Origin: Streptomyces sp. NBC_01429
Lineage (GTDB): Bacteria > Actinomycetota > Actinomycetes > Streptomycetales > Streptomycetaceae
Reading direction: 5' to 3'
Length of the DNA stretch: 64,000 bases
Assembly (NCBI RefSeq): GCF_036231945.1
Contig: NZ_CP109599.1
Location: forward strand, 7,095,501 to 7,159,500
Below are positions 12,495 to 23,581 of this stretch, piece after piece. Each line of letters opens with the position of its first letter. Position 1 is the stretch's first letter. Position numbers and translations under genes: made by a program. The notes under the pieces were generated by a model that saw only the letters and a program-made list of their open reading frames with translations, was not told where the DNA came from and made no database searches.

Positions 12495-12545
12495 GCCGAG
12501 TCATTAGCAGGAGTGTCCCTTCGCAGCACAGGAAACGGAGCACCC

Positions 12546-13649
12546 GTGAGCGCCCTGTTCGAGCCGTACACACTGAGGTCGCTGACCATCCCGAACCGTC
12601 TCTGGATGGCGCCGATGTGTCAGTACACGGCCGCCCCGGAAGGCGTCGAGGAGGGCGTGCCCAACGACTGGCACTTCCAGCACCTGGCCGCCCGCGCCGC
12701 CGGTGGGGCGGGGCTGATCCTCGCCGAGGCCACCGCGGTGAGCCCCGAGGGGCGGATCAGCCCGTGGGACCTGGGGCTCTGGAACGACCGGCAGACCGAG
12801 GGGTTCCGGCGCATCACCGCCTTCCTCAAGAGCCAGGGCACCGTGCCCGGCATCCAGATCGCCCACGCGGGCCGAAAGGCGTCCACCGAGCGGACCTGGG
12901 TGGACCGCGGTGCGGCGATCCCGCCCGGCGAGCAGTACGGCTGGACGCCCGTGGCGCCCAGCGCGATCCCCTTCGGGCCCGCCTCGACCGTGCCGGAGGA
13001 GCTGTCGGTGGCACGGATCGACGAGATCGTCGAGCAGTTCGCCGCCACCGCCCGCCGGGCGCTGGAGGCCGGGTTCGAGGTGGTCGAGGTCCACGGCGCC
13101 CACGGCTATCTGATCAACCAGTTCCTCTCGCCCCACAGCAACCGGCGCACCGACGAGTACGGCGGCTCCTACGAGAACCGCACCCGGTTCGCGCTGCGCG
13201 TCGTGGACGCCGTACGCGAGGTGTGGCCGCGGGAGCTGCCGGTCTTCTTCCGCATCTCCGCCACCGACTGGCTCTCGGAGAACGAGGACGACGAGCGCGA
13301 GGGCTGGACGGCCGAGGACACCGTCCGGTTCGCGGCGGACCTGACCGCGCACGGGGTGGACCTGCTGGACACCTCCACCGGCGGCAGCGCCCCGGACGCC
13401 AGGATCGTGCCGTCCCCCGGCTTCCAGGTGGGCTTCGCCGAGCGGGTCAAGAAGGAGACCGGCATGCCCGTCGGCGCGGTCGGCCTGATCACCGAGCCCC
13501 GGCAGGCGGAGGAGATCGTCGCGGGCGGCCGGGCGGACGCCGTGCTGATCGGGCGCGAGCTGCTGCGCGACCCGTACTTCGCCCGGCGCGCGGCGCGCGA
13601 GCTGTCCGCCGACGTGGCGGGCCCGCTCCAGTACCACCGGGCGGTCTGA
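12546..13649 (+). CDS. NADH:flavin oxidoreductase, old yellow enzyme (YqjM type)
   Basis: A 367-residue OYE-family FMN enzyme of the YqjM/xenobiotic-reductase class, which reduces activated C=C bonds using NAD(P)H. Visible are MAPMCQYTA with the class-typical Cys near residue 23, IAHAGRKA, the His pair of HGAHGYLINQFLSP and the FMN-phosphate region near RADAVLIGRELLRDP. The GTG at 12546 has GGAG at the right distance; a GTG at 12513 has its AGGAG directly adjacent and looks worse. The strong promoter and dyad suggest control by a repressor that senses electrophiles or a substrate. Confidence 0.9.
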   Translation: MSALFEPYTLRSLTIPNRLWMAPMCQYTAAPEGVEEGVPNDWHFQHLAARAAGGAGLILAEATAVSPEGRISPWDLGLWNDRQTEGFRRITAFLKSQGTVPGIQIAHAGRKASTERTWVDRGAAIPPGEQYGWTPVAPSAIPFGPASTVPEELSVARIDEIVEQFAATARRALEAGFEVVEVHGAHGYLINQFLSPHSNRRTDEYGGSYENRTRFALRVVDAVREVWPRELPVFFRISATDWLSENEDDEREGWTAEDTVRFAADLTAHGVDLLDTSTGGSAPDARIVPSPGFQVGFAERVKKETGMPVGAVGLITEPRQAEEIVAGGRADAVLIGRELLRDPYFARRAARELSADVAGPLQYHRAV

Positions 13650-13709: not shown

Positions 13710-13879
13710 TGTGTCCGGGGTGTGTGTCCGGTGTGTTTCCGGCCGGGCCGGATTCCGGCCGAACCGGGAACTCCGGTTTAACAGAGCAGCAACTGCGCGG
13801 ACATTCCTCCCGGACACAGTGACTGGCAACTGTTTACAGAACCTCCTGAACAGGGAGAACGCCAGTAGGGAGCAGTCCG

Positions 13880-14803
13880 GTGAGAGCAACAAACACGCGA
13901 ACGGCCGCAGTGTGCACCGCCGTTGTCCTGATGGCCGCGGTGTCCGCCTGCGGTGGTTCCAACACGGCGGCGCCGGCCGGCGCCGCCGACGTCTCGCCGC
14001 CGAAGAACCTCGCCTCGTCCGGCACTCTGACCTACGGCACGGCGGCGAGCTTCCCGCCCTTCGAGTCCCAGGGCACGGGCGGGCAGCCCCAGGGCTTCGA
14101 CATCGACATGATCGCGGCGCTGTCCGCGTCCATGGGGCTGAAGCCCAAGGCGCTCGACATCGACTTCGACGGGCTCATCCCGGCGCTGTCGGGAAAGCGG
14201 ACCGACGTCATCAACTCGGCCATGTACATCACGCCCGAGCGCGAGAAGCAGGTCGACTTCGTTCCGTACATGGTCATCGGGGAGACCCTGCTGACCCCCA
14301 AGGGGAACCCCAAGAAGATATCCAGGGTCCCCGAGGACCTCTCCGGGCGCACCGTCGCCGTCACCCGGGGCGCCATCGGCGAGACGTACATGACCGCGTA
14401 CAACAAGGAGCTGAAGAAGCAGGGCCGCGCGGAGATGAAGATCATGTCGCTGCCGAACAACCAGGACGCGATGCTCGCGGTCCAGTCGGGCCGCGCGGAC
14501 GCCTTCGACACCTCCACTCCCGGCGCGGCGGCCACGCTCGCCGCCACCAAGGACAAGTTCACCCTCGCGGCGACCTTCAAGAACGAGACGAAGATCGGGA
14601 TCGCGGTACGCAAGGGCGACACGTCGACCAAAACCGCCATCACCGCGGCACTGAACCGGTTCGTCAAGTCCGGTGGCTACGCGGAGCTGCTGGCCAAGTA
14701 CAAACTGCCCAAGGATTCCGACTACTTCGCCTCCTCGGGAGCGTCGTCGGCCAAGCCCTCCGCCCCGGCCTCGTCCTCCTCCACCTCGTCGAGCGGTTCG
14801 TAG
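13880..14803 (+). CDS. ABC transporter substrate-binding lipoprotein, polar amino-acid type
   Basis: A 307-residue solute-binding protein (SBP_bac_3 family). A lipoprotein signal ends in VSAC (Cys 21), then come the family motifs GTLTYGTAASFPPFE, GFDIDMIAALS and GKRTDVINSAMYITPER, and a Ser/Pro-rich C-terminal tail. It would capture an amino acid or similar zwitterion outside the membrane for the permease and ATPase encoded next. The GTG at 13880 has AGGGAG upstream. It is the first gene of a packed ten-gene rightward set. CTGTTTACAG (13830-13839) lies just upstream and could be part of an operator. Confidence 0.9.
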   Translation: MRATNTRTAAVCTAVVLMAAVSACGGSNTAAPAGAADVSPPKNLASSGTLTYGTAASFPPFESQGTGGQPQGFDIDMIAALSASMGLKPKALDIDFDGLIPALSGKRTDVINSAMYITPEREKQVDFVPYMVIGETLLTPKGNPKKISRVPEDLSGRTVAVTRGAIGETYMTAYNKELKKQGRAEMKIMSLPNNQDAMLAVQSGRADAFDTSTPGAAATLAATKDKFTLAATFKNETKIGIAVRKGDTSTKTAITAALNRFVKSGGYAELLAKYKLPKDSDYFASSGASSAKPSAPASSSSTSSSGS

Positions 14804-14804
14804 C

Positions 14805-15518
14805 ATGGAGTTCCTGCACAAGGCGGTCTCCACCGACTTCCTGACCGCGTCGCTGCTGACCTTCGTCCTCACGGTCCTGTCGATGGCGCTGGGCGTCGTG
14901 GGCGGTGTGCTGCTCGCGCTGGCCAAGGGCGTGCGGTTCGCTCCCGTGCGCTGGCTCGCCGACGCGTACATCTGGTTCTTCCGGGGCACGCCCGTCCTGC
15001 TCCAGCTCATCTTCGTCTTCAACGTGCTGCCGCTGTGGGGGCTGAGCCTGTCCCCGTTCACCTGCGCGGTCATCGCCCTGAGCCTCAACGAGGTCGCCTA
15101 CATGGCGGAGATCGTCCGGGGCGGCCTGCTCGGGGTGGACCGGGGCCAGCGCACGGCGGCCCGGATGCTCGGGCTGTCCGAGGCGGGCATCCTGCGCTGG
15201 GTGGTGCTCCCGCAGGCGACCCGGCTGATCCTGCCGCCCACCGGCAACCAGTTCATCGGAATGCTCAAGACCTCCGCACTGGCCTCCGTGGTCAGTGTCC
15301 AGGACCTGATGCTCACCGCACAGCGCCAGGCCGCCGCCGACTTCGACTACGTCGGATCGCTCGGCGCGGCAGCCGTCCACTACCTCGTCCTGACCACGGT
15401 GTTCACCCTCGCCCTGCGGCAGGTGGAGCGACGTCTCGACGTCAACCGGCGCGCCGCCGCCCGGCGTACCAAGGACCCCGTCCGCACGACGGCGGCCGTC
15501 GACCCGGCGGCCCGATGA
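14805..15518 (+). CDS. ABC transporter permease, polar amino-acid type
   Basis: A 237-residue membrane permease of the HisM/GlnP family with about five hydrophobic helices. The cytoplasmic EAA loop (EIVRGGLLGVDRGQ to RWVVLPQA, about residues 101-138) couples to the ATPase. The ATG at 14805 starts one base after the stop of the binding-protein gene, so translation is probably coupled. One permease gene is present, so the channel would be a homodimer. Confidence 0.9.
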   Translation: MEFLHKAVSTDFLTASLLTFVLTVLSMALGVVGGVLLALAKGVRFAPVRWLADAYIWFFRGTPVLLQLIFVFNVLPLWGLSLSPFTCAVIALSLNEVAYMAEIVRGGLLGVDRGQRTAARMLGLSEAGILRWVVLPQATRLILPPTGNQFIGMLKTSALASVVSVQDLMLTAQRQAAADFDYVGSLGAAAVHYLVLTTVFTLALRQVERRLDVNRRAAARRTKDPVRTTAAVDPAAR

Positions 15519-15559
15519 GTTCCGCGCGGCCCGCCACCGGAACCGGAAAGGGAGCGGCC

Positions 15560-16429
15560 ATGAGCGACGCCAGGCCAGAAGCCACGGCGGAATCCGGTGT
15601 GCACGCCGCCACGGCCGGCACGCACACCACCACCACGCACACCACGACCACCACGCACTCCACCACCCCCGCGGCGCCCGCCTCCGCCAGGGCGCGCACC
15701 GTCCTCGTCGCCGAGAACCTCGGCCGCAGCTACCACGGCACCGCCGTGGTCAGCGAGGTGAACCTGACGATCCCGGCCGGCCAGACCGTCGCCGTCCTCG
15801 GCCCCTCGGGAGCCGGCAAGTCCACCATGCTGCGCTGTCTGGCCGGGCTCGAACCGCTGGAGACCGGCAGTGTGGGTTTCCAGGGCGAGCTGCTCTCGAA
15901 GGCCGGATCCAAACCGCGCTCGGTCGGCGGCCGGATCGGCATGGTCTTCCAGCAGTTCAACCTCTTCCCGCACCTCACCGCCGCGCAGAACGTGGCGCTG
16001 GCGCCCGTCCGGGTACGGGGGATCTCCCGCGCCAAGGCGCTCCAGGAGGCCCATGAACTCCTGGAGCGGGTGGGGCTCGCCGAGCGCCGCGACCACTATC
16101 CGTACGAACTCTCCGGCGGCCAGCAGCAACGGGTGGCCATCGCCCGCGCCCTGGCCATGCACCCCGAACTGATGCTCTTCGACGAGCCCACCTCGGCGCT
16201 CGACCCGGAGTTCACCCGCGAGGTGCTCGCCGTCATGCGCGACCTCGCCGACAGCGGGATGACCATCGTCGTCGTCACGCACGAGATGGGGTTCGCCCGA
16301 AGGAGCGCGGACCGGGTGGTGTTCATGGCCGACGGCCGGATCGTGGAGGACGGCCCGTCGGAAACCCTGTTCACGGCGGCCCGGCACGAGCGGACCCGCT
16401 CCTTCTTCGAGCAGATCCTCGGAGAGTAG
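15560..16429 (+). CDS. ABC transporter ATPase, polar amino-acid type
   Basis: A 289-residue ATPase powering the importer. It has Walker A GPSGAGKST, the Q-loop VFQQFNLFP, the signature LSGGQQQRVAIARAL, Walker B LMLFDEP and the H-loop VVTHE. The first 45 residues are an unusual Thr/His-rich extension (HTTTTHTTTTTHSTT) not found in the family core. I start at ATG 15560, with GGGAG upstream; an in-frame ATG at 15515 overlaps the permease stop (ATGA) and cannot be excluded. Confidence 0.9.
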   Translation: MSDARPEATAESGVHAATAGTHTTTTHTTTTTHSTTPAAPASARARTVLVAENLGRSYHGTAVVSEVNLTIPAGQTVAVLGPSGAGKSTMLRCLAGLEPLETGSVGFQGELLSKAGSKPRSVGGRIGMVFQQFNLFPHLTAAQNVALAPVRVRGISRAKALQEAHELLERVGLAERRDHYPYELSGGQQQRVAIARALAMHPELMLFDEPTSALDPEFTREVLAVMRDLADSGMTIVVVTHEMGFARRSADRVVFMADGRIVEDGPSETLFTAARHERTRSFFEQILGE

Positions 16430-16433
16430 GACC

Positions 16434-17165
16434 ATGACGACGCCACCTCCGCCACGCCGTCTCTCCGCCGCCCGCCCGACCGCCCCCTGGAGCCTGCGCA
16501 AACAGGACTGGGCCTACCAGCAGCTCCGCGAGCGCATCCTGACCGGGGCGCTGGCCCCGGGGGAACAGCTCAGCCAGGAGGCCCTGGCCAATGAACTCGG
16601 CATCAGCCGGGGCCCGTTGCGCGACGCCCTGTCCCGGCTGGCCGCCGAGAGCCTGGTGGTGGACCGCCCGCACCAGAAGTCCATCGTCGCCGAGGTCTCG
16701 GTGGCGGACGCCCGGGACATCTACAACGGCCGGGCGGCACTGGAAGGGGTGCTCGCGGCGGCGGCCGCTCAGGCGGACGCGGACGAACGTGACTTCCAGG
16801 CAGCCGACTTCGGCTTACTGCTGGAGCGCCAGCGCATCGCCGTCTCGCTCGGCGACGCCGCCCAAGTGCGCATGCTGGACCGGCAGTTCCACGACGCCGT
16901 CTACGCGATGGCGGCCATGCCCGCCACCCTGGCCGCGCTCAATCAACTGCGGGCCAAGAGCGACCGCTATCTCGCTCTCTATCTGGCGGACTCCCAACGG
17001 GCCCAGATCTCGGTGGACGAACACACCGCCATCCTCGACGCCCTGCTGAGCGGGGACGCCGAACAGTCCGCCGCGCTGACCCGGACCCACGTACTGGGCG
17101 GGCTGACGCTGCTGACCGGCTCCATCGTCGGCCAGCCCGCGCGCCTGGCCGACCCCGCCGTCTGA
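16434..17165 (+). CDS. GntR-family regulator, FCD (FadR) subgroup
   Basis: A 243-residue regulator with an N-terminal winged helix (about residues 22-80, including LSQEALANELGISRGPLRDALSRL) and an FCD ligand-binding domain. Its metal-binding residues are probably in DRQFHDAVY, the DEH segment and a later His. FCD regulators usually sense the substrate or an intermediate of the pathway they control. It begins 4 bp after the transporter genes and precedes the catabolic genes, so it is the likely local regulator of the whole set. Confidence 0.9.
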   Translation: MTTPPPPRRLSAARPTAPWSLRKQDWAYQQLRERILTGALAPGEQLSQEALANELGISRGPLRDALSRLAAESLVVDRPHQKSIVAEVSVADARDIYNGRAALEGVLAAAAAQADADERDFQAADFGLLLERQRIAVSLGDAAQVRMLDRQFHDAVYAMAAMPATLAALNQLRAKSDRYLALYLADSQRAQISVDEHTAILDALLSGDAEQSAALTRTHVLGGLTLLTGSIVGQPARLADPAV

Positions 17166-17263
17166 CGTGCGGGCGGGTGGGGCCGGTCCGGTCCCGCCCC
17201 GCACCGCCCGTCACCCCGCCCGCCACCACACCCGACGTACCAGACACAGTGAGGAACCCGATC

Positions 17264-18490
17264 GTGATCCATCTGCCCGGGGCCATCGAGCGCCTGTCCC
17301 TGCCCGAACACACCGCCCGGCTGGGGATGTCCGTACGCGAGGCCGAACGCGAGCTGGAGAACGGCCCAGGCCCCGACCGCCTTCTCGACGCCACCTACGC
17401 CGACACCCACCGCTTCCCGGCCCCCGAGTGGGCGCTGCCCACCTTCAACGCGGCCGCCGGCGGCGACGGCATGACGTACACCCCCTACCGGGGCGACCGC
17501 GCCGTGCGCGAGGCCGTCGCCCACAACGTCTCCACCCACCTCGGCATCCCCGCCACCGGGCCCGCGGACGTCATCCTCACCCCCGGCACCCAGGGCGCGC
17601 TGTTCACCGCGCTCGCCGCGATCCTCTCGCCCGGGGACCTCGTCCTGCTGCCCGACCCCGACTACCTCTCCACCGAGCGGATGCTGCGCTACTTCGGCGC
17701 CCGGGTCCGGCGTATCCCGATGATCTGGCCGGACGAGTCCACCGGCGGCGCCCGCACCCGCCCCACCCTGGACCTCCAGGCGCTGGAGGACGCCGCCGCC
17801 GAGGGCCCCCGCCTGATGGTCTTCTCGCACCCCAACAACCCCACCGGCGCCATCTACGGCGAGGAGACGGTCGAGGCGATCGCCGACGCCGCCCGCCGCC
17901 ACGACTTCACCGTCATCGCCGACGAGCTGTACTGCCGACTCGTGTACGAGGGCGAGAAGTTCCACCACCTCGCCGCCTTCGACGGCATGGCCGAACGTAC
18001 GGTCACCCTGCTCGGCCCCTCCAAGACCGAGTCGCTGTCCGGCTACCGGCTCGGTGTCGCCGTCGCGCCCACGGCGCTGGTCGACGCGATGGAGGACGTG
18101 CAGTCCTGCACGGCGCTGCGGGCTCCCTCGTACGCCCAGCACCTGCTGGCGCGCTGGATCGCCGACGACGTCGACTTCCTCGACCGGCGGCTCGTGGAGT
18201 ACCAGGCCCTGCGCGACACCACCGTGAAGAAGATCAACGCGTCCTCGGTCATGCGCGTCAACGCCGCCTACGGCACCGCCTACCTCTTCCCCGAGGTGCT
18301 GACCGGAGCCAGCGACCAGGCCGTGGCACTCGCCCTCAAGGAACACGCCGGTGTGATCGTCAACCCCGGCTACCAGTTCGGACTCGCGGGCACCGGCCGG
18401 ATGCGGCTGTGCTTCGCGCAGGACGAGACCGCCTGGGACACCGCCCTCGACCGGATCATCGAGGTCGTGGGCTCGCTGGACCCGGCATGA
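17264..18490 (+). CDS. PLP-dependent aminotransferase, class I/II
   Basis: A 408-residue fold-type I aminotransferase. Visible are the cofactor region TPGTQGALFTAL, HPNNPTGAIY, the Asp of DELYCRLVYEG and the PLP-binding Lys in GPSKTESLSGYRLG, with the substrate Arg near RMRLCF. It would transfer the amino group of an intermediate to an alpha-keto acid. I use the GTG at 17264, which follows GAGGA by 8 nt; an earlier in-frame GTG at 17177 gives a leader without homology. Its stop overlaps the next start (ATGA). Confidence 0.85.
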   Translation: MIHLPGAIERLSLPEHTARLGMSVREAERELENGPGPDRLLDATYADTHRFPAPEWALPTFNAAAGGDGMTYTPYRGDRAVREAVAHNVSTHLGIPATGPADVILTPGTQGALFTALAAILSPGDLVLLPDPDYLSTERMLRYFGARVRRIPMIWPDESTGGARTRPTLDLQALEDAAAEGPRLMVFSHPNNPTGAIYGEETVEAIADAARRHDFTVIADELYCRLVYEGEKFHHLAAFDGMAERTVTLLGPSKTESLSGYRLGVAVAPTALVDAMEDVQSCTALRAPSYAQHLLARWIADDVDFLDRRLVEYQALRDTTVKKINASSVMRVNAAYGTAYLFPEVLTGASDQAVALALKEHAGVIVNPGYQFGLAGTGRMRLCFAQDETAWDTALDRIIEVVGSLDPA

Positions 18491-19710
18491 CGGCCGGCCG
18501 GGGCCCGCGCGCGGTGTCACCCGCCGCCCCCGTGACACCGTCGGTCGTGGTCGAGGCGCGGTACGGGGTGATCGGTCTGCCCTTGCGACTGAGACTCCGT
18601 CACACCACCGTCGACACAGCGGAGTTGACGGAGGTCTTCCTCCGGGTCCGGCTCGCCGACGGACACACCGGCTGGGCCGAGACCCGGGGCAACGGCGCGT
18701 ACGCCACCCATCACACCGCCGGTGACATCGCCGCCGCCCTGGCCGCACTGCCCCCCGCCAGCGATCCGGCGTGGGCCGTTCCCGACGCCCTCGCGGACGC
18801 CCTGGCCGCCCACTGCCCACCGGCCGCCGCGCTGCTGGACATCGCCTGGCGCGACGCCTCGGCCCGCTCCCTGGGCCTGCCACTGTGGGCGACGCTCGAC
18901 CCGTCGGCCGCGGCGCCCCCCGGGCCGCTGCCCACCCACGCGCCGATCGGCTTCGGCACTCCGCCAGAGGCGGCCGAGCTGGCCACCGCCGCCGCACGGG
19001 CCGGATTCCGCCGGGTCAAGGTGCGCGTCGGCGGCGACCCCGGCCTGGACCGGGCCCGGATCGCCGCCGTACGCACGGCCGTCGACCGGATCGCGGGCGG
19101 CGGTACGGTCGCACTCGCCGCCGACGCCAACGGCGGCTGGACCCCCGACACCGCGATCGCCGCCACGCGGTGGCTCGCGGACAGCGGCGTCGCCTGGCTC
19201 GAACAGCCCGTCGCGCCGGGCGATCTGGCGGCGCTGGCCGCCGTGCGCGCGGCCTCGCGCGTGCCGGTGTGGGCCGACGAGTCGGTCCGCGACGCGGCCT
19301 CGGTGCACGCCGTCGCCGACGCGGGCGCCGCCGACGGAGTCCATCTGAAGCTGGAGAAGGCGGGCACCGTCGCCGCCCTGGCCGCCGCGATCGACGCCGC
19401 TCGCTCCCGAGGGCTCGACGTCGGGCTCGGCCAGATGGACTGCGGACGCCTCGGCTGCGCGACCACCGCCCAGCTGGCGGCCGGGCTCGGGGTCGCGGTG
19501 GCCGAACTGTGGGGCTGCGCCAACCTCGCGCACGACGTCACCGAGGGAATCGACCTGCGTGACGGTGCCGTCCGCCTGCCCGACGCCCCCGGACTCGGCG
19601 TCCGGGTCTCGGTGGACCCCGCGCGGCTGACCCCGGTGGGCACGCGCACGCCCCTGCCGACGGCGGCGCCCGTACAACCCCCCGACCGAGCAAGGACGTT
19701 CTCACCATGA
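18487..19710 (+). CDS. Enolase-superfamily enzyme, muconate-lactonizing/dipeptide-epimerase-like, KxR variant
   Basis: A 407-residue member of the mandelate racemase/muconate lactonizing enzyme group, which pulls a proton from the alpha-carbon of a carboxylate. Metal ligands are visible as D213 (ADAN), E239 (WLEQP) and D264 (ADES), and the distal catalytic Lys as K288 (HLKLEK). The first catalytic motif, normally KxK, reads K178-V-R180, so one of the usual acid/base lysines is an Arg. This may restrict the enzyme to one-sided proton chemistry or a different reaction. It overlaps both neighbours by 4 bp. Possible roles are a dipeptide or N-acyl-amino-acid epimerase, or a dehydratase/cycloisomerase. 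Confidence 0.8.
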
Positions 19711-21002
19711 CCACTGCCCCCGAAACGACCGGACCGACCGGCACGACCGCCCGGACCTCGGCCCCGACTCCGACCCCCCTCGGGTCCGCGTCCGGCCGGA
19801 CCACCGGCACCCCCGACGTACTGGCCCTGCTCACCGCCATGGTCGCGTGCGACTCCACCACCCCGACCGGCGAGGAGGAGACCACCGCCGCGCTGCTCGC
19901 CGAGCCGCTCGCCGCCGCCGGCTTCGAGGTGGAGACCGAGCGGCTGGCACCCGGACGCGTCAACCTCACCGCGCGCCGCGGGTTCGGCGCGGGCGGCCCC
20001 GTGATCATGCTCAACTCGCATCTGGACGTCGTCCCGGCGGGCGGCGGCTGGACCAGCCCGCCGTTCCTGCCCACCCTGCGCGACGGACGGCTGTACGGCC
20101 GGGGCACCGCCGACGCCAAGGGACCGCTGGCCGCCATGGCGTGCGCCGCGATCGAGCTGGCCCGCGCGGCGGACGCCGGCGACGCCACGGCCCCGGCCCG
20201 CGGCGAGATCGTCTTCTCCGCCGTGTCGCAGGAGGAGGGCGACTCGATGGGCGCCCGTCATCTCGTACCGCTGCTGGCCCGCGAGGGCAGGCTGCCCGAC
20301 GCGGTCGTCGTCGGCGAACCCACCGGAATGCGGCTGCTGACCGCCCACAAGGGCTCGGTCCGTCCGGTGATCGAGGTCGTCGGCGTCGCGGCACACGCCG
20401 CCACCCCGGGACAGGGCGTGAACGCGGTGACGGCCGCCGCGCGCGTCATCGCCCTGCTGGAGGAGTACAGCGCCTCGCTCACTGACCACGGCCACCCGCT
20501 GCTCGGCGCGCCCACCTGCACCCCCGTACTCATCGAGGGAGGCGAGGCGCCCAACGCCGTCCCCGAGCGCTGCCGGATCACCCTGGACCGGCGGCTGCTG
20601 CCGGGGGAGACCCAGGAGTCAGTGGTGGCGGCCGTCGGGGAGGTCCTCGACCGGTTCAACGCGGCGGGGGAAGGCGCGAGCGCCTCCGTGGTCGCCTGCG
20701 CGCCCAGCACCGGCGGCCCCTCGGAGACCCCCGGGGACCATCCGTTCGTGGGGCTGTGCCGCCGGGCGCTCGCTGCGGCCGGCGCCGACGACTCGCTCGG
20801 CGGACTCACCGTCAACTGCGACATGACGCACTTCAGGGCGGCCGGCGTCCCGGCGCTGGTCTGCGGTCCCGGGCGCCTGGAGGTGATGCACGCGGTCGAC
20901 GAGCACATCGTCGTCGACGAACTGCGCGACTCCGTCGGCCTCTACCGGGCGATCCTCACCGAGGCGCTCTCGGCGGACCCGGAGAGCCCCGCATGGAGCT
21001 GA
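19707..21002 (+). CDS. M20-family metallo-amidohydrolase (ArgE/DapE type)
   Basis: A 431-residue di-zinc hydrolase. Metal and catalytic motifs are in order: [22 protein letters not shown], the general-base pair SQEEGD, VVGEPTG and the C-terminal [11 protein letters not shown]20 enzymes cleave N-acyl groups or dipeptides. The start ATG 19707 overlaps the previous stop (ATGA). The first 35 residues are a low-complexity Thr/Pro leader. Beside an epimerase-like enzyme it may remove an N-acyl or carbamoyl group from the epimerised product. Confidence 0.85.
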
Positions 21003-21931
21003 CGATCGCGCTCGGCCAGGCGGAGAGCGTCCCCGGCGACCTCGCGGCCAACCTCGCCACGGCGACCCGGCTGGTGGCCGTCGCGGCCGCGCGCGGCGCG
21101 CGCGTCCTGGCCCTGCCCGAGCTGTTCGCCTGCGGATACGACCCCGACTCGATCAGCGCCGACCCCGACGGCTGGTCCCTGGCCGAGCCCCCGGCCGGTA
21201 CGGAGCCACCGCCCGGCTCCCCGCTGGCCCCCCTCGCGGGGGCGGCGGCCGAGCACGGCGTCTGGGTGCTCCTCGGAGCGGCGGTCGCCGCCCGGGGACG
21301 GCCGGGCAACGCCGTCCTCGTCATCGACCCGTACGGCAGGGCGCGCGGCCACTACGCCAAGGCGCACCTGTGGCAGGGCGAGCGCGACGCCTTCGACCCC
21401 GGGACCGGGCTCGTCATGATCGAGGACGGCGGGATCTCCCTCGGCCTCGGCATCTGTTACGACGCCGGCTTCCCGGAGCTGACCCGCGCCTACGCCCGCG
21501 CCGGGGCCCACGCCGTCCTGTTCTCCTCCGCCTTCGCCCACGGCCCCACCGAGTACCGCTACGGCGTCTACCACCCGGCGCGCGCCGTGGAGAACACCGT
21601 CTCCACCCTGGTCGTCAACGCGGTCGGCGACATCGCGGGAGAGCGCTACTTCGGCCGCAGCGGCGCCTGGAGCCCCGACGGCCACCCGATCACCGCCTGC
21701 GCGGACGGCCGGAGCGACCTGCGCGTCGTGACCGTGTCGGCCGCCGCGACCGCCACCGTACGGCAGGAGCTGCCGTACCTGACCGATCTCCGTACCGACC
21801 TGCTCGGGCCCGCCCCGGCGCCCCCGCTCACCCGGATCTCCCTGCCCGGGGGAGCTGTCCGTCCCGAGCGATCCGATTCCCCCGACGACACCTCAGGAGC
21901 ACCCCATGCCGCCCGTCTTTCCCGCCGCTGA
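20993..21931 (+). CDS. Carbon-nitrogen hydrolase, nitrilase superfamily
   Basis: A 312-residue amidase of the nitrilase superfamily with the catalytic triad E43 (LPELF), K123 (HYAKAHLW) and C155 ([10 protein letters not shown]). These enzymes hydrolyse amides, nitriles or N-carbamoyl compounds. The ATG at 20993 lies inside the end of the M20 gene (10-bp overlap). The last 35 residues form a Pro/Arg-rich tail overlapping the next gene by 26 bp. In this pathway it probably opens an amide or ureide bond. Confidence 0.85.
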
Positions 21932-23054
21932 GTACGCGCGGCGCCTGGCCGCGCTGCGCGCCACGCTCAAGACCCAGGAGCTGGACGCCGTCATCGTCCA
22001 CACGCCGGAGAACGTCTGTTACCTCTCCGGGCACGCCACCCCGGGCTACTACACCTACCAGTGCCTGATCGTCACGGCCGACGGCGAGGCCGCGCTGCTG
22101 ATGCGCGAGACCGAGACGGTCAACGCCGCCGAGACCACGTACTTCGAGCGGATCACCGGCTATCCGGACAGCTCCGACCCGATCCTGGCCACCGCCGAAC
22201 TCCTCGCCCGGGTGGCGCCCGGCGCCCGCGCCGTGGGGATGGAGGCCCGCTCCTGGTTCCTGCCGCCGGAGCCGTTCCTCAAGCTGACCGCCCTGCTGGA
22301 CACGGCCGGCGCGCGGGTCACCCACATCGACGGCGTGCTGGCCGCCGCCCGGCTCGTCAAGTCGCCGCTGGAGATCGAGCGGATCAGGGCGGCCGCCCGG
22401 TCCACCAACGCGGGCATGGCGGCGGCAGCGGCTGCGGCCGTTCCCGGCGCCTCGGAGCGTACGGTGGCCGCCGCCGCGTTCGGCGGGCTCATCGCCTCCG
22501 GCTCCGAGTACTTCGGCATGGAGCCGTTCGTCGCCTCGGGGCCGCGCGCCGGGACCATCCACGCGAGCTGGACGGACCGGGTCATCCGCCCGAACGAACC
22601 CGTACTCCTGGAGATGTCCGCGACCGTCGGCCGGTACAACGCGCCCCTCATGCACACCGTATGGACCGGCCCGCTCTCCGGTGAGCCCGCCGCCATGGCC
22701 ACGGCCTGCGCGGCGGCCAGGGACGCGGCCCTGGACCATGTCGTCCCGGGCGGTTCCCCGGCGGCGGCACACGCGGCCTGCAAGGCGGCCATCGCCGACG
22801 CGGGCCTGGCCCACACCTACCGCAAGCGCAGCGGCTACTCGGTCGGGATCGCCTTCGCCCCGGACTGGGGCGAGGGACACCTGCTCTCCCTGGGGGAGAA
22901 CGAGCAGCGCCTCTTCGAGCCCGGCATGGTGGTCCATGTGGTGCCCACGCTGCGGGTGCGGGACAGCGCGGGGATCGGTCTGTCGGCGACCGTCCTGATC
23001 ACCGAGAGCGGCCACGAGGTCCTCACCTCCTGCGACACGGGACCGCTGCTGTGA
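21906..23054 (+). CDS. M24-fold hydrolase, creatinase/ectoine-hydrolase-like
   Basis: A 382-residue pita-bread-fold protein with an N-terminal creatinase domain (about residues 1-150) and a C-terminal M24 domain. It lacks the metal-binding Asp residues of true Xaa-Pro peptidases: the region reads LLEMSATVGRYNAPLMHTVW instead of a D-x-G...D pattern, and GYSVGIAFAPDWGEGH replaces the peptidase His region. This is the pattern of creatinase and ectoine hydrolase (DoeA/EutD), which cleave C-N bonds in amidine or guanidine compounds without metal. It is the best clue to the pathway's substrate class. Confidence 0.8.
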   Translation: MPPVFPAAEYARRLAALRATLKTQELDAVIVHTPENVCYLSGHATPGYYTYQCLIVTADGEAALLMRETETVNAAETTYFERITGYPDSSDPILATAELLARVAPGARAVGMEARSWFLPPEPFLKLTALLDTAGARVTHIDGVLAAARLVKSPLEIERIRAAARSTNAGMAAAAAAAVPGASERTVAAAAFGGLIASGSEYFGMEPFVASGPRAGTIHASWTDRVIRPNEPVLLEMSATVGRYNAPLMHTVWTGPLSGEPAAMATACAAARDAALDHVVPGGSPAAAHAACKAAIADAGLAHTYRKRSGYSVGIAFAPDWGEGHLLSLGENEQRLFEPGMVVHVVPTLRVRDSAGIGLSATVLITESGHEVLTSCDTGPLL

Positions 23055-23581
23055 GTGGCGCGGCGAGCGGTGCGGTGGGCGGTACGGAGCGAGCCGAGCC
23101 GGCGTCCGGCGGCCCGGTGCCCGACGCGCCCGTCCCGGCGGGGGACTACGCCGCCGCGCGGATCGCGGGCGGGCTGGTCTTCACCGCGGGGATGACCCCG
23201 CGCGCGGGCGGCGGCGTCATCGCGGCGGGCGTCCTCGGGGCCGGTCTGTCCGTCGCGGACGCGGCCCCGCTGGCCGCGCTCGCGGCCGGGCGCGCGGTCG
23301 AGGCGGCACGGGAGGCGGCGCGGGAGGCCGGGCTGCGCCTGGACTCCGCCGTCTCGATGACGGTCCACCTCGCCGTCGTACCCGGCTTCACCGAGCACAG
23401 CCGGGTCGCCGACGGAGCGAGCGCGCGGGTGCGTTCCCTGCTGGACGGCCCGCCGCCCGCCCGTACGGCGGTCGGGGTGGCCGCGCTGCCGTCGGGGGCG
23501 CCGGTGGAGGTGACGCTCGTACTGTCCACGGCGGAAGTGGCGGAACCGGCGGAACCGGCGGAAGTGACGGAGGCGCCGTAA
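23051..23581 (+). CDS. RidA/YjgF-family protein
   Basis: A 176-residue RidA-fold protein that starts at GTG 23051, overlapping the previous stop. RidA proteins hydrolyse reactive enamines and imines released by PLP enzymes. The core runs from about residue 30 to 160 and keeps the substrate-binding Arg in ARTAVGVAALPSG. Both ends carry extensions: about 28 residues at the N-terminus and an EPAEPAEV-like C-terminal repeat. It is the last gene of the set and would clear imine intermediates from the aminotransferase or a deaminating step. Confidence 0.85.
   Translation: MSGAASGAVGGTERAEPASGGPVPDAPVPAGDYAAARIAGGLVFTAGMTPRAGGGVIAAGVLGAGLSVADAAPLAALAAGRAVEAAREAAREAGLRLDSAVSMTVHLAVVPGFTEHSRVADGASARVRSLLDGPPPARTAVGVAALPSGAPVEVTLVLSTAEVAEPAEPAEVTEAP

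Follow-up and report, generated by a model that had tools for sequence, protein, structure and literature searches.

In the chromosome (8.08 Mb) of Streptomyces sp. NBC_01429, ten genes encoded on the + strand occupy positions 13880–23581 of the window, i.e., of the whole stretch of 64,000 nucleotides that was analysed (chromosomal positions 7,095,501–7,159,500). Their products (Table 1) are the solute-binding protein (SBP), permease and ATPase of an ATP-binding cassette (ABC) importer, a GntR/FCD regulator, an aminotransferase, an enolase-superfamily enzyme of the MR/MLE type (MR), an M20 amidohydrolase, a nitrilase-superfamily amidase, an M24 hydrolase and a RidA-family protein. An earlier note, made from the sequence alone, had named these genes and described them as packed with overlaps, and both statements stand: the open reading frames (ORFs) are all open and intact at this place, and the ten families lie above the Pfam gathering scores. 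According to the coordinates, five successive junctions overlap, by 4 nt (aminotransferase/MR, MR/M20 and M24/RidA), 10 nt (M20/nitrilase) and 26 nt (nitrilase/M24); the other junctions have gaps of 1 nt (SBP/permease), about 41 nt (permease/ATPase), 4 nt (ATPase/GntR) and 11 nt (GntR/aminotransferase), the ATPase start at 15560 being our choice and the GTG start of the aminotransferase at 17177 being uncertain. Among the matches listed, none of the ten proteins reached an equivalog model of NCBIfam; the permease did reach the broad domain model TIGR01726, M20 fell 0.1 bit short of TIGR01910 (ArgE/DapE subfamily; 217.5 bits, cut-off 217.6), and the best model for the ATPase was GlnQ (301 bits, below the cut-off of 379).

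Table 1. Genes of the operon and features of the preceding region (positions in the window).
Feature	Position	Strand	Remarks
Perfect inverted repeat, 20-bp arms, 2-nt loop	13668–13709	+	Located after the upstream ORF, before the SBP gene
Putative operator of the GntR/FCD regulator	13823–13841	+	Core CTGTTTACAG at 13830–13839
Family-3 SBP	13880–14803	+	PF00497 (SBP_bac_3); lipobox by eye
ABC importer permease, HisM/GlnP type	14805–15518	+	PF00528 (BPD_transp_1); TIGR01726 above cut-off
ABC importer ATPase, GlnQ type	15560–16429	+	PF00005 (ABC_tran)
GntR/FCD regulator	16434–17165	+	PF00392, PF07729
Pyridoxal-phosphate aminotransferase class I/II, PRK06207-like	17177–18490	+	PF00155 (Aminotran_1_2)
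MR/MLE enolase-superfamily enzyme	18487–19710	+	PF13378 (MR_MLE_C)
M20 amidohydrolase, ArgE/DapE type	19707–21002	+	PF01546 (Peptidase_M20), PF07687 (M20_dimer)
Nitrilase-superfamily amidase	20993–21931	+	PF00795 (CN_hydrolase)
EutD-type M24 hydrolase lacking the peptidase metal ligands	21906–23054	+	PF00557 (Peptidase_M24), PF01321 (Creatinase_N)
RidA-family protein	23051–23581	+	PF01042 (Ribonuc_L-PSP)

Upstream of the SBP gene, the segment 13660–13720 has a folding energy of -54.5 kcal/mol (z -6.95; none of 200 shuffled sequences folded as well), and the inverted repeat within it is probably a transcription terminator without a T-run. The hairpin is kept in G512, a second genome of the genus, with both arms changed (GAGGTG/CACCTC to GAGATG/CATCTC). 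It sets off the operon from an ORF located directly upstream on the same strand (12513–13649) that, by eye, resembles a flavin oxidoreductase of the old-yellow-enzyme type. The core of the putative operator, CTGTTTACAG, is an inverted repeat (TGTnnACA) 41–50 nt before the SBP start, and the pattern CTGTTNACAG has one match in the window versus 0.09 expected. Inspection of 11 loci of the window's type revealed the exact core upstream of the SBP gene in five of them (the window, L038 from G512, L063, L065 and L067) and a core one base off in L062 and L072, which gives seven aligned rows, picked after the motif was seen; in L070 a match with one mismatch is located farther upstream. When the genome was scanned for a regulon, a loose form of the operator gave eight matches versus five for the reversed pattern, and the T centre was present only at the operon's own site. 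The GntR/FCD protein would be the natural candidate to bind this operator. A scan with the sigma-70 consensus found no promoter-like sites, and Rfam and tRNA scans of the window gave no matches. From the packing, the conservation of the genes, the hairpin and the putative operator, it is suggested that the ten genes form a single transcript.

Within the genus, relatives of the M24 protein were detected at 1e-40 in seven of 246 genomes, its own included, and only this genome and G512 have one better than 1e-200. All ten genes recur in G512, in unchanged order and with 75–94% protein identity. A scan of named genomes with the M24 alignment gave 288 relatives, the best 80 of which were fetched; together with the window, G512 and five plasmid loci they make up 87 loci, and 65 of these are full-context loci with at least 8 kb on either side of the M24 gene. 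Neighbouring genes were counted by tblastn assignment, since Louvain families split or merged real families and included antisense ORFs; the presence of the permease and the ATPase was checked separately. The comparison of gene order in other actinobacteria that the earlier note had proposed revealed that the order SBP, GntR, aminotransferase, MR, M20, nitrilase, M24 recurs in Amycolatopsis, Wenjunlia, S. shenzhenensis, Actinopolymorpha, Auraticoccus and Nocardia (L062, L063, L065, L068, L070, L072). The set is rearranged in Saccharopolyspora (L067) and Kineosporia (L071), it is present without the aminotransferase in the alphaproteobacterium Roseovarius spongiae (L073), and L064, L066 and L069 either run into a contig end or have a rearranged set; in eight of the 12 loci L062–L073, RidA comes after M24. 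Given its recurrence in G512 and, largely, in the named actinobacteria, the gene arrangement is more than chance. In the M24 tree, the long branch of Roseovarius joins the actinobacteria (100/99), and such joins may be false.

A core formed by SBP, MR and M20 accompanies M24 in 54 of the 65 full-context loci (66/87 overall), and spans Pseudomonadota, Bacillota and Actinomycetota, including Pseudomonas, Klebsiella, Pantoea, rhizobia, acetic acid bacteria, Paenibacillus and relatives of Streptomyces. Counted singly near M24 in the 65 loci, SBP is present in 55, GntR in 58, and MR and M20 in 61 each, and one of three kinds of aminotransferase is found in 54. Some amidase is present in 52, i.e., a nitrilase in 17 (Actinomycetota, Bacillota and L073) or a class-I glutamine-amidotransferase in 35 (Pseudomonadota and the unclassified bin L098), and never both. 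As controls, 13 other M24 neighbourhoods were used (L039–L051, M24 identity 29–37%; L038 was fetched alongside and counted as test), which have SBP in three, MR in three, M20 in four and GntR in four; nitrilase, amidotransferase, DapA and short-chain dehydrogenase/reductase (SDR) were found in none of the 13. The pairwise protein distances of M24, MR and M20 correlate with r 0.92–0.95, a value that none of 500 shuffles reached. Unrelated functions packed by chance in one transcript are therefore a very improbable explanation, in view of the order and joint inheritance across phyla and of one motif recurring upstream of the first gene, even though the aminotransferase–RidA pair is also found in other company in Martelella (L060). 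In that locus (L060:7041–13550), a PRK06207-type aminotransferase and RidA stand with a different ABC importer, a HAD hydrolase and a threonine/serine dehydratase, and no M24 match was found in the 25 kb retrieved; from this arrangement, the pair is a movable sub-module.

The predicted model of the M24 protein (predicted local distance difference test, pLDDT, 90.0) comes closest in fold to product-bound EutD (6yo9; Z 44.8, root-mean-square deviation (rmsd) 2.3, 377 aligned residues, 28% identity over the model), with substrate-bound EutD tied (6twk; Z 44.1). Creatinase 1chm comes next (Z 42.0, rmsd 2.1, 371 aligned), tied with the best prolidase, 1wy2 (Z 41.2, rmsd 2.2, 347 aligned), and its match says nothing on the substrate. 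Metal-dependent Xaa-Pro peptidases (M24B) have five metal ligands, D, D, H, E and E, and metal-free M24 hydrolases already include those of ectoine and creatine hydrolysis. In the window M24 the five columns read E, P, Y, V and S, the last one being S360, in a ten-row alignment against the metal-bearing relatives L020, L022 and L029; L018, L024, L025, L027 and L030 were left out of this comparison (gapped or misaligned, probably on the wrong strand), and L002 aligned partly. An identity as Xaa-Pro dipeptidase was rejected because all five columns are changed. The metal-free fold carries the same His and Glu as EutD/DoeA: H219 is kept in 89 of 91 relatives and E236 in all 91, and both align with DoeA. 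Position 361 is Glu in 76 of the 91, as in DoeA, and Ala in 11, i.e., ten actinobacterial proteins (the window's included) and that of Roseovarius.

The earlier note had seen a likeness to ectoine- or creatine-type breakdown. As regards the fold of M24 this likeness stands, with EutD first and the creatinases, tied with prolidases, second; it does not extend to filing the operon as ectoine breakdown. The best NCBIfam model for M24 is 'ectoine_DoeA_2', yet the scores are far under both equivalog cut-offs (TIGR02993, 135.7 of 613 bits; NF038259, 249 of 575 bits). The lack of EutE that the note had remarked on extends to the whole genome, where TIGR02994 gave no match at E 0.001; in four related records it was over its cut-off in none, with weaker matches elsewhere in two. 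Likewise, Pfam revealed no dehydrogenase among the ten genes. A standard ectoine cluster was thus rejected and the standard ectoine route is excluded, because its defining genes were not found.

The EutD/EutE systems and the operon nevertheless have in common a logic of hydrolase, deacylase and aminotransferase. According to the available part of PMC5924519, the product of EutD is an N-acetyl amino acid (ectoine is converted to N-acetyl-diaminobutyrate), and ABC importers, such as the operon has, are part of some ectoine clusters. The operon differs in that M20 stands in the place of EutE, no dehydrogenase is present, and an MR enzyme and an amidase are added; its regulator is of the FCD type, in contrast with the MocR-type regulator of the EutD/EutE pair described in the part seen of PMC8739950. 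Putative clusters with EutD homologues and without eutE are described for Bacillota and Actinomycetota in the accessible portion of PMC13188858; these contain eutBCD-atf and abgB-thrA-adh, abgB being an amidohydrolase gene, with varying importers. Within what this source gives, they resemble the operon in kind by an M24 protein, an amidohydrolase, an aminotransferase and an ABC importer, whereas eutB, eutC, thrA and adh are absent from the operon by name and MR, nitrilase and RidA are additional. A variant pathway for ectoine or 5-hydroxyectoine, in which M20 would replace the EutE deacetylase, could draw on these clusters with abgB, on the EutD fold and on the DoeA model. We consider it improbable: apart from the low scores and the missing EutE, position 361 is Glu in DoeA versus Ala in the 11 M24 proteins of the window's clade; eutB, eutC, thrA and adh of those clusters, as far as PMC13188858 was accessible, were not seen in the operon; and MR, the amidase and DapA have no place in the route as described in the part seen of PMC5924519.

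The predicted model of the SBP (pLDDT 85.4) is nearest to binders of glutamate, glutamine and arginine, and of N-substituted amino acids (best Z 26.7). The latter include SocA for deoxyfructosyl-glutamine (Z 26.0, rmsd 2.7, 236 aligned), OccJ for octopine (Z 25.3, rmsd 2.6, 230 aligned) and NocT for pyronopaline (Z 24.7, rmsd 2.2, 225 aligned), and since they trail the best match by about 2 Z units or less, the fold alone does not choose the ligand. In amino-acid-binding family-3 SBPs, an Arg contacts the alpha-carboxylate and an Asp contacts the alpha-ammonium. The Arg (R121) is kept in 66 of 66 proteins; the canonical Asp is replaced (S212 in the window) by Ser in 65 and by Pro in one, in a column ungapped against AncQR and AncCDT-1, both of which have Asp. 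These residues point to a ligand with a carboxylate and without an alpha-ammonium contact.

In profile searches, the solved sequences nearest to the MR enzyme are 2p88, which we take to be an N-succinyl-Arg/Lys racemase (its structure record says only MR/MLE family protein), and then 1jpm, a dipeptide epimerase. Residues K178, R180, D213, E239, D264, H286, K288, R67 and E340 do not vary among the 75 proteins compared, and N69 is kept in 74 of them. The fold, the metal ligands (D213, E239 and D264) and the beta-6 Lys are those of the N-acylamino acid racemase/dipeptide epimerase subgroup (2p88, 1jpm) and of DgcA, the N-acetyl-D-Glu racemase, on whose model the MR enzyme scores 98.8 of 400 bits. 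N-acylamino acid racemases have K-x-K on beta-2 opposite the Lys on beta-6, and the signature of dipeptide epimerases is DxD on beta-8. The MR enzyme differs from this subgroup in both respects: K178-x-R180 with K288 is present in all 75 proteins, where 2p88 has KMK and 1jpm has KIK, and DxD is absent. The beta-8 motif is instead E340-L-x-G343, as in 2p88 (ELTG), and D-F-D of 1jpm aligns with E340-L-W342, position 342 being Y in 51, W in 21, H in two and S in one of the 75. A dipeptide epimerase identity was rejected on the absence of DxD, and the K-x-R arrangement may be regarded as the main sign of new chemistry in this operon.

These residues also bear on the scavenging of dipeptides with D-residues or of the Xaa-Pro type, where MR would be the epimerase, M24 the prolidase and M20 the dipeptidase. 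The second-best solved relative of MR, the prolidases, which trail EutD by no more than 4 Z units when M24 folds are compared, and the annotation of M24 as Xaa-Pro peptidase all suit this proposal; it is, however, unlikely, as the five metal-ligand columns of M24 are changed, MR lacks DxD and the SBP lacks the ammonium-binding Asp.

The M20 protein retains its metal-ligand and catalytic columns (H105, D136, E176, E177 and E204 in 77 of 78 proteins, H395 in 76), and so does the nitrilase (Cys in 22 of 22, Glu and Lys in 21). Nitrilases of the omega-amidase or deaminated-glutathione-amidase type pair with aminotransferases; the operon likewise pairs an aminotransferase with a CN_hydrolase protein whose Cys-Glu-Lys columns are intact, and differs in that this protein scores only 74 of 355 bits on the deaminated-glutathione-amidase model. 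On that of N-carbamoylputrescine amidase it reaches 70.8 of 410 bits. The class-I amidotransferases have the cysteine motif GLCLG in 39 of 41 proteins, their His-Glu pair having been checked in part. Such proteins (L056:11629–12852 and relatives), annotated as 'CTP synthase' or gamma-glutamyl-GABA hydrolase, lie near M24 in 40 of the 87 loci; four representatives of 365–420 residues match the GATase family of Pfam in their C-terminal half only, and two representatives are far under the CTP synthase cut-offs of NCBIfam. The best solved relative of the aminotransferase is 3nra, and among the matches listed it scores 297 bits on PRK06207 (cut-off 464) and 207.7 bits, half of the cut-off of 415, on GntC, an enzyme for gamma-hydroxyarginine.

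A pathway that degrades an amino acid with a guanidino or amidine group, in which M24 as an amidinohydrolase would yield a carboxamide or ureido product for the nitrilase, with M20 and MR acting on a side product, takes up the weak likeness of the nitrilase to N-carbamoylputrescine amidase and of the aminotransferase to GntC, together with the creatinase folds that follow EutD. We see it as a minor possibility, slightly ahead of the dipeptide and variant-ectoine proposals: the creatinases are tied with the prolidases in Z, the GntC score is half of its cut-off, and a side role does not explain why M20 and MR, in 61 of 65 loci each, are nearly as constant as M24. ADPC, a glutamine-derived cyclic amidine mentioned in the accessible part of PMC5924519, was also considered as the M24 substrate; it would explain M24 and the amidase and leave MR, M20 and DapA unexplained.

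Further genes near M24 were also counted. In the 65 full-context loci DapA is found in 40, SDR in 38 and a GRHPR-type reductase in six, and DapA and GRHPR are near-exclusive (39 DapA alone, five GRHPR alone, one both, 20 neither). Among the nine GRHPR loci of the 87, a VOC gene is present in eight and an SDR of the kinds searched in none. Substrates of DapA such as the 2-oxo acids of the 4-hydroxy-glutamate type were considered, given that the L125 DapA protein is related to the mitochondrial 4-hydroxy-2-oxoglutarate aldolase (E 5e-23); ordinary DapA enzymes match this protein better, up to 6e-33.

Taken together, an SBP without the ammonium contact, an MR enzyme of the N-acyl type, an M20 protein of the ArgE/DapE type and an EutD-like M24 protein lead us to infer that the imported molecule is either itself an N-acyl amino acid or, in the manner of ectoine, a cyclic compound whose ring opening yields one; the guess of an N-acylated substrate made in the earlier note fits the SBP residues and the MR enzyme. 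The recurrence of an amidase in two unrelated forms suggests, in addition, a carboxamide in the course of the pathway. The explanation that we favour, tentatively and at somewhat less than even probability, is that of a GntR/FCD-controlled operon for the uptake and degradation of a compound with a free carboxylate, a blocked alpha-nitrogen and a further C-N bond that finally gives a carboxamide. The protein families allow the following course to be proposed: the importer would bring the compound in and the metal-free M24 hydrolase would open a C-N bond to give an N-acyl amino acid. The nitrilase-family amidase would hydrolyse the carboxamide, the class-I glutamine-amidotransferase protein replacing it in Pseudomonadota; the MR/MLE enzyme would epimerise or isomerise the N-acyl amino acid, M20 would remove the acyl group, and the aminotransferase, helped by RidA, would form a 2-oxo acid. 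In other phyla this acid could pass to the DapA-type aldolase and the SDR, or to the GRHPR-type reductase and the VOC protein; in the actinobacteria, disposal of the carbon part would have to occur elsewhere in the genome. These reactions, their order and the class of the substrate are a provisional scheme.

Several observations weigh against this scheme. The main one for a plain racemase step would be the K-x-R of the MR enzyme. The Ser in place of Asp in the SBP may stem from something other than a blocked nitrogen, and the Ala361 of the actinobacterial M24 proteins, versus Glu in EutD and most relatives, may mean that substrates differ between phyla. No aminotransferase match was found in 11 of the 65 loci and no amidase match in 13, and the split between nitrilase and amidotransferase is confounded by ancestry, which explains much of it. 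The same holds for the distance correlations, which show joint inheritance and not function, because values of this size arise from common descent alone. The M24 alignment served to gather the loci, of which the best 80 of 288 were kept, and the query proteins for the counts were partly drawn from the same loci. The operator core is absent within one mismatch from L068, L071 and L073, and overall the operator is missing or unseen in four of the 11 loci inspected. Finally, serine/threonine dehydratase and a second hydroxyacid dehydrogenase were each rejected as part of the set (3/65 loci versus 3/13 controls for both).

The description of the ten genes as a catabolic operon in the earlier note is, on this evidence, probably right: the module is real and conserved, it is probably catabolic, and the literature search revealed no known pathway for homologous clusters. 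In searches for the cluster and its enzymes, for ectoine hydrolase and for genes of M. smegmatis, no publication was found that names the cluster or assigns its homologues to a pathway, within a coverage that leaves outside most subscription papers and all bioRxiv preprints. With nearly even probability, it could represent an unrecognised and widespread pathway for a common natural compound, present in at least three phyla, in bacteria whose names point to soil, plants, fermented fruit and guts, and with two enzymes of new chemistry, i.e., a further reaction type for metal-free M24 proteins and the K-x-R MR/MLE enzyme; the latter could extend the repertoire of a textbook superfamily by one reaction. 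Its genes are annotated as Xaa-Pro peptidase, CTP synthase and dihydrodipicolinate synthase family protein, and a conserved and probable nutrient route for which no name was found may lie behind these labels. The SBP signature reduces the candidate ligands to N-blocked carboxylates, which brings a screen within practical reach, and the upstream motif is usable as the basis for a reporter.

Some neighbourhoods outside the main set merit mention. A sister type of M24 lies near 5-oxoprolinase-type genes and a carbamoylase-like hydrolase in L057, L058 and L059; by eye and tblastn, the unannotated Paracoccus locus L057 also has both aminotransferase kinds, RidA, DapA, D-amino-acid transaminase and RraA-like ORFs. 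Derivatives of 5-oxoproline were considered as the substrate, as PxpB-like genes lie at most 9 kb from M24 in L057, L058, L059, L096, L097 and L129; these are, however, only six of the 87 loci. In L085, L112, L116 and L138, M24 and M20 adjoin an ORF that by eye resembles a GMC oxidoreductase, and a further neighbour family is present, whose L085 member matches the Amdase / Asp-Glu racemase family of Pfam. In the same genus as the window, L040, L041 and L042 have an M24 relative (32–34% identity) beside an MR/MLE gene (29–32%), with most of the operon absent. In M. smegmatis under nitrogen limitation, MSMEG_2491 (acetylornithine deacetylase), MSMEG_2493 (aminotransferase) and MSMEG_2494 (Xaa-Pro aminopeptidase) are up 2.2- to 2.4-fold according to the part seen of PMC4617892; these are neighbouring genes of a make-up similar to that of the operon, a likeness by description only.

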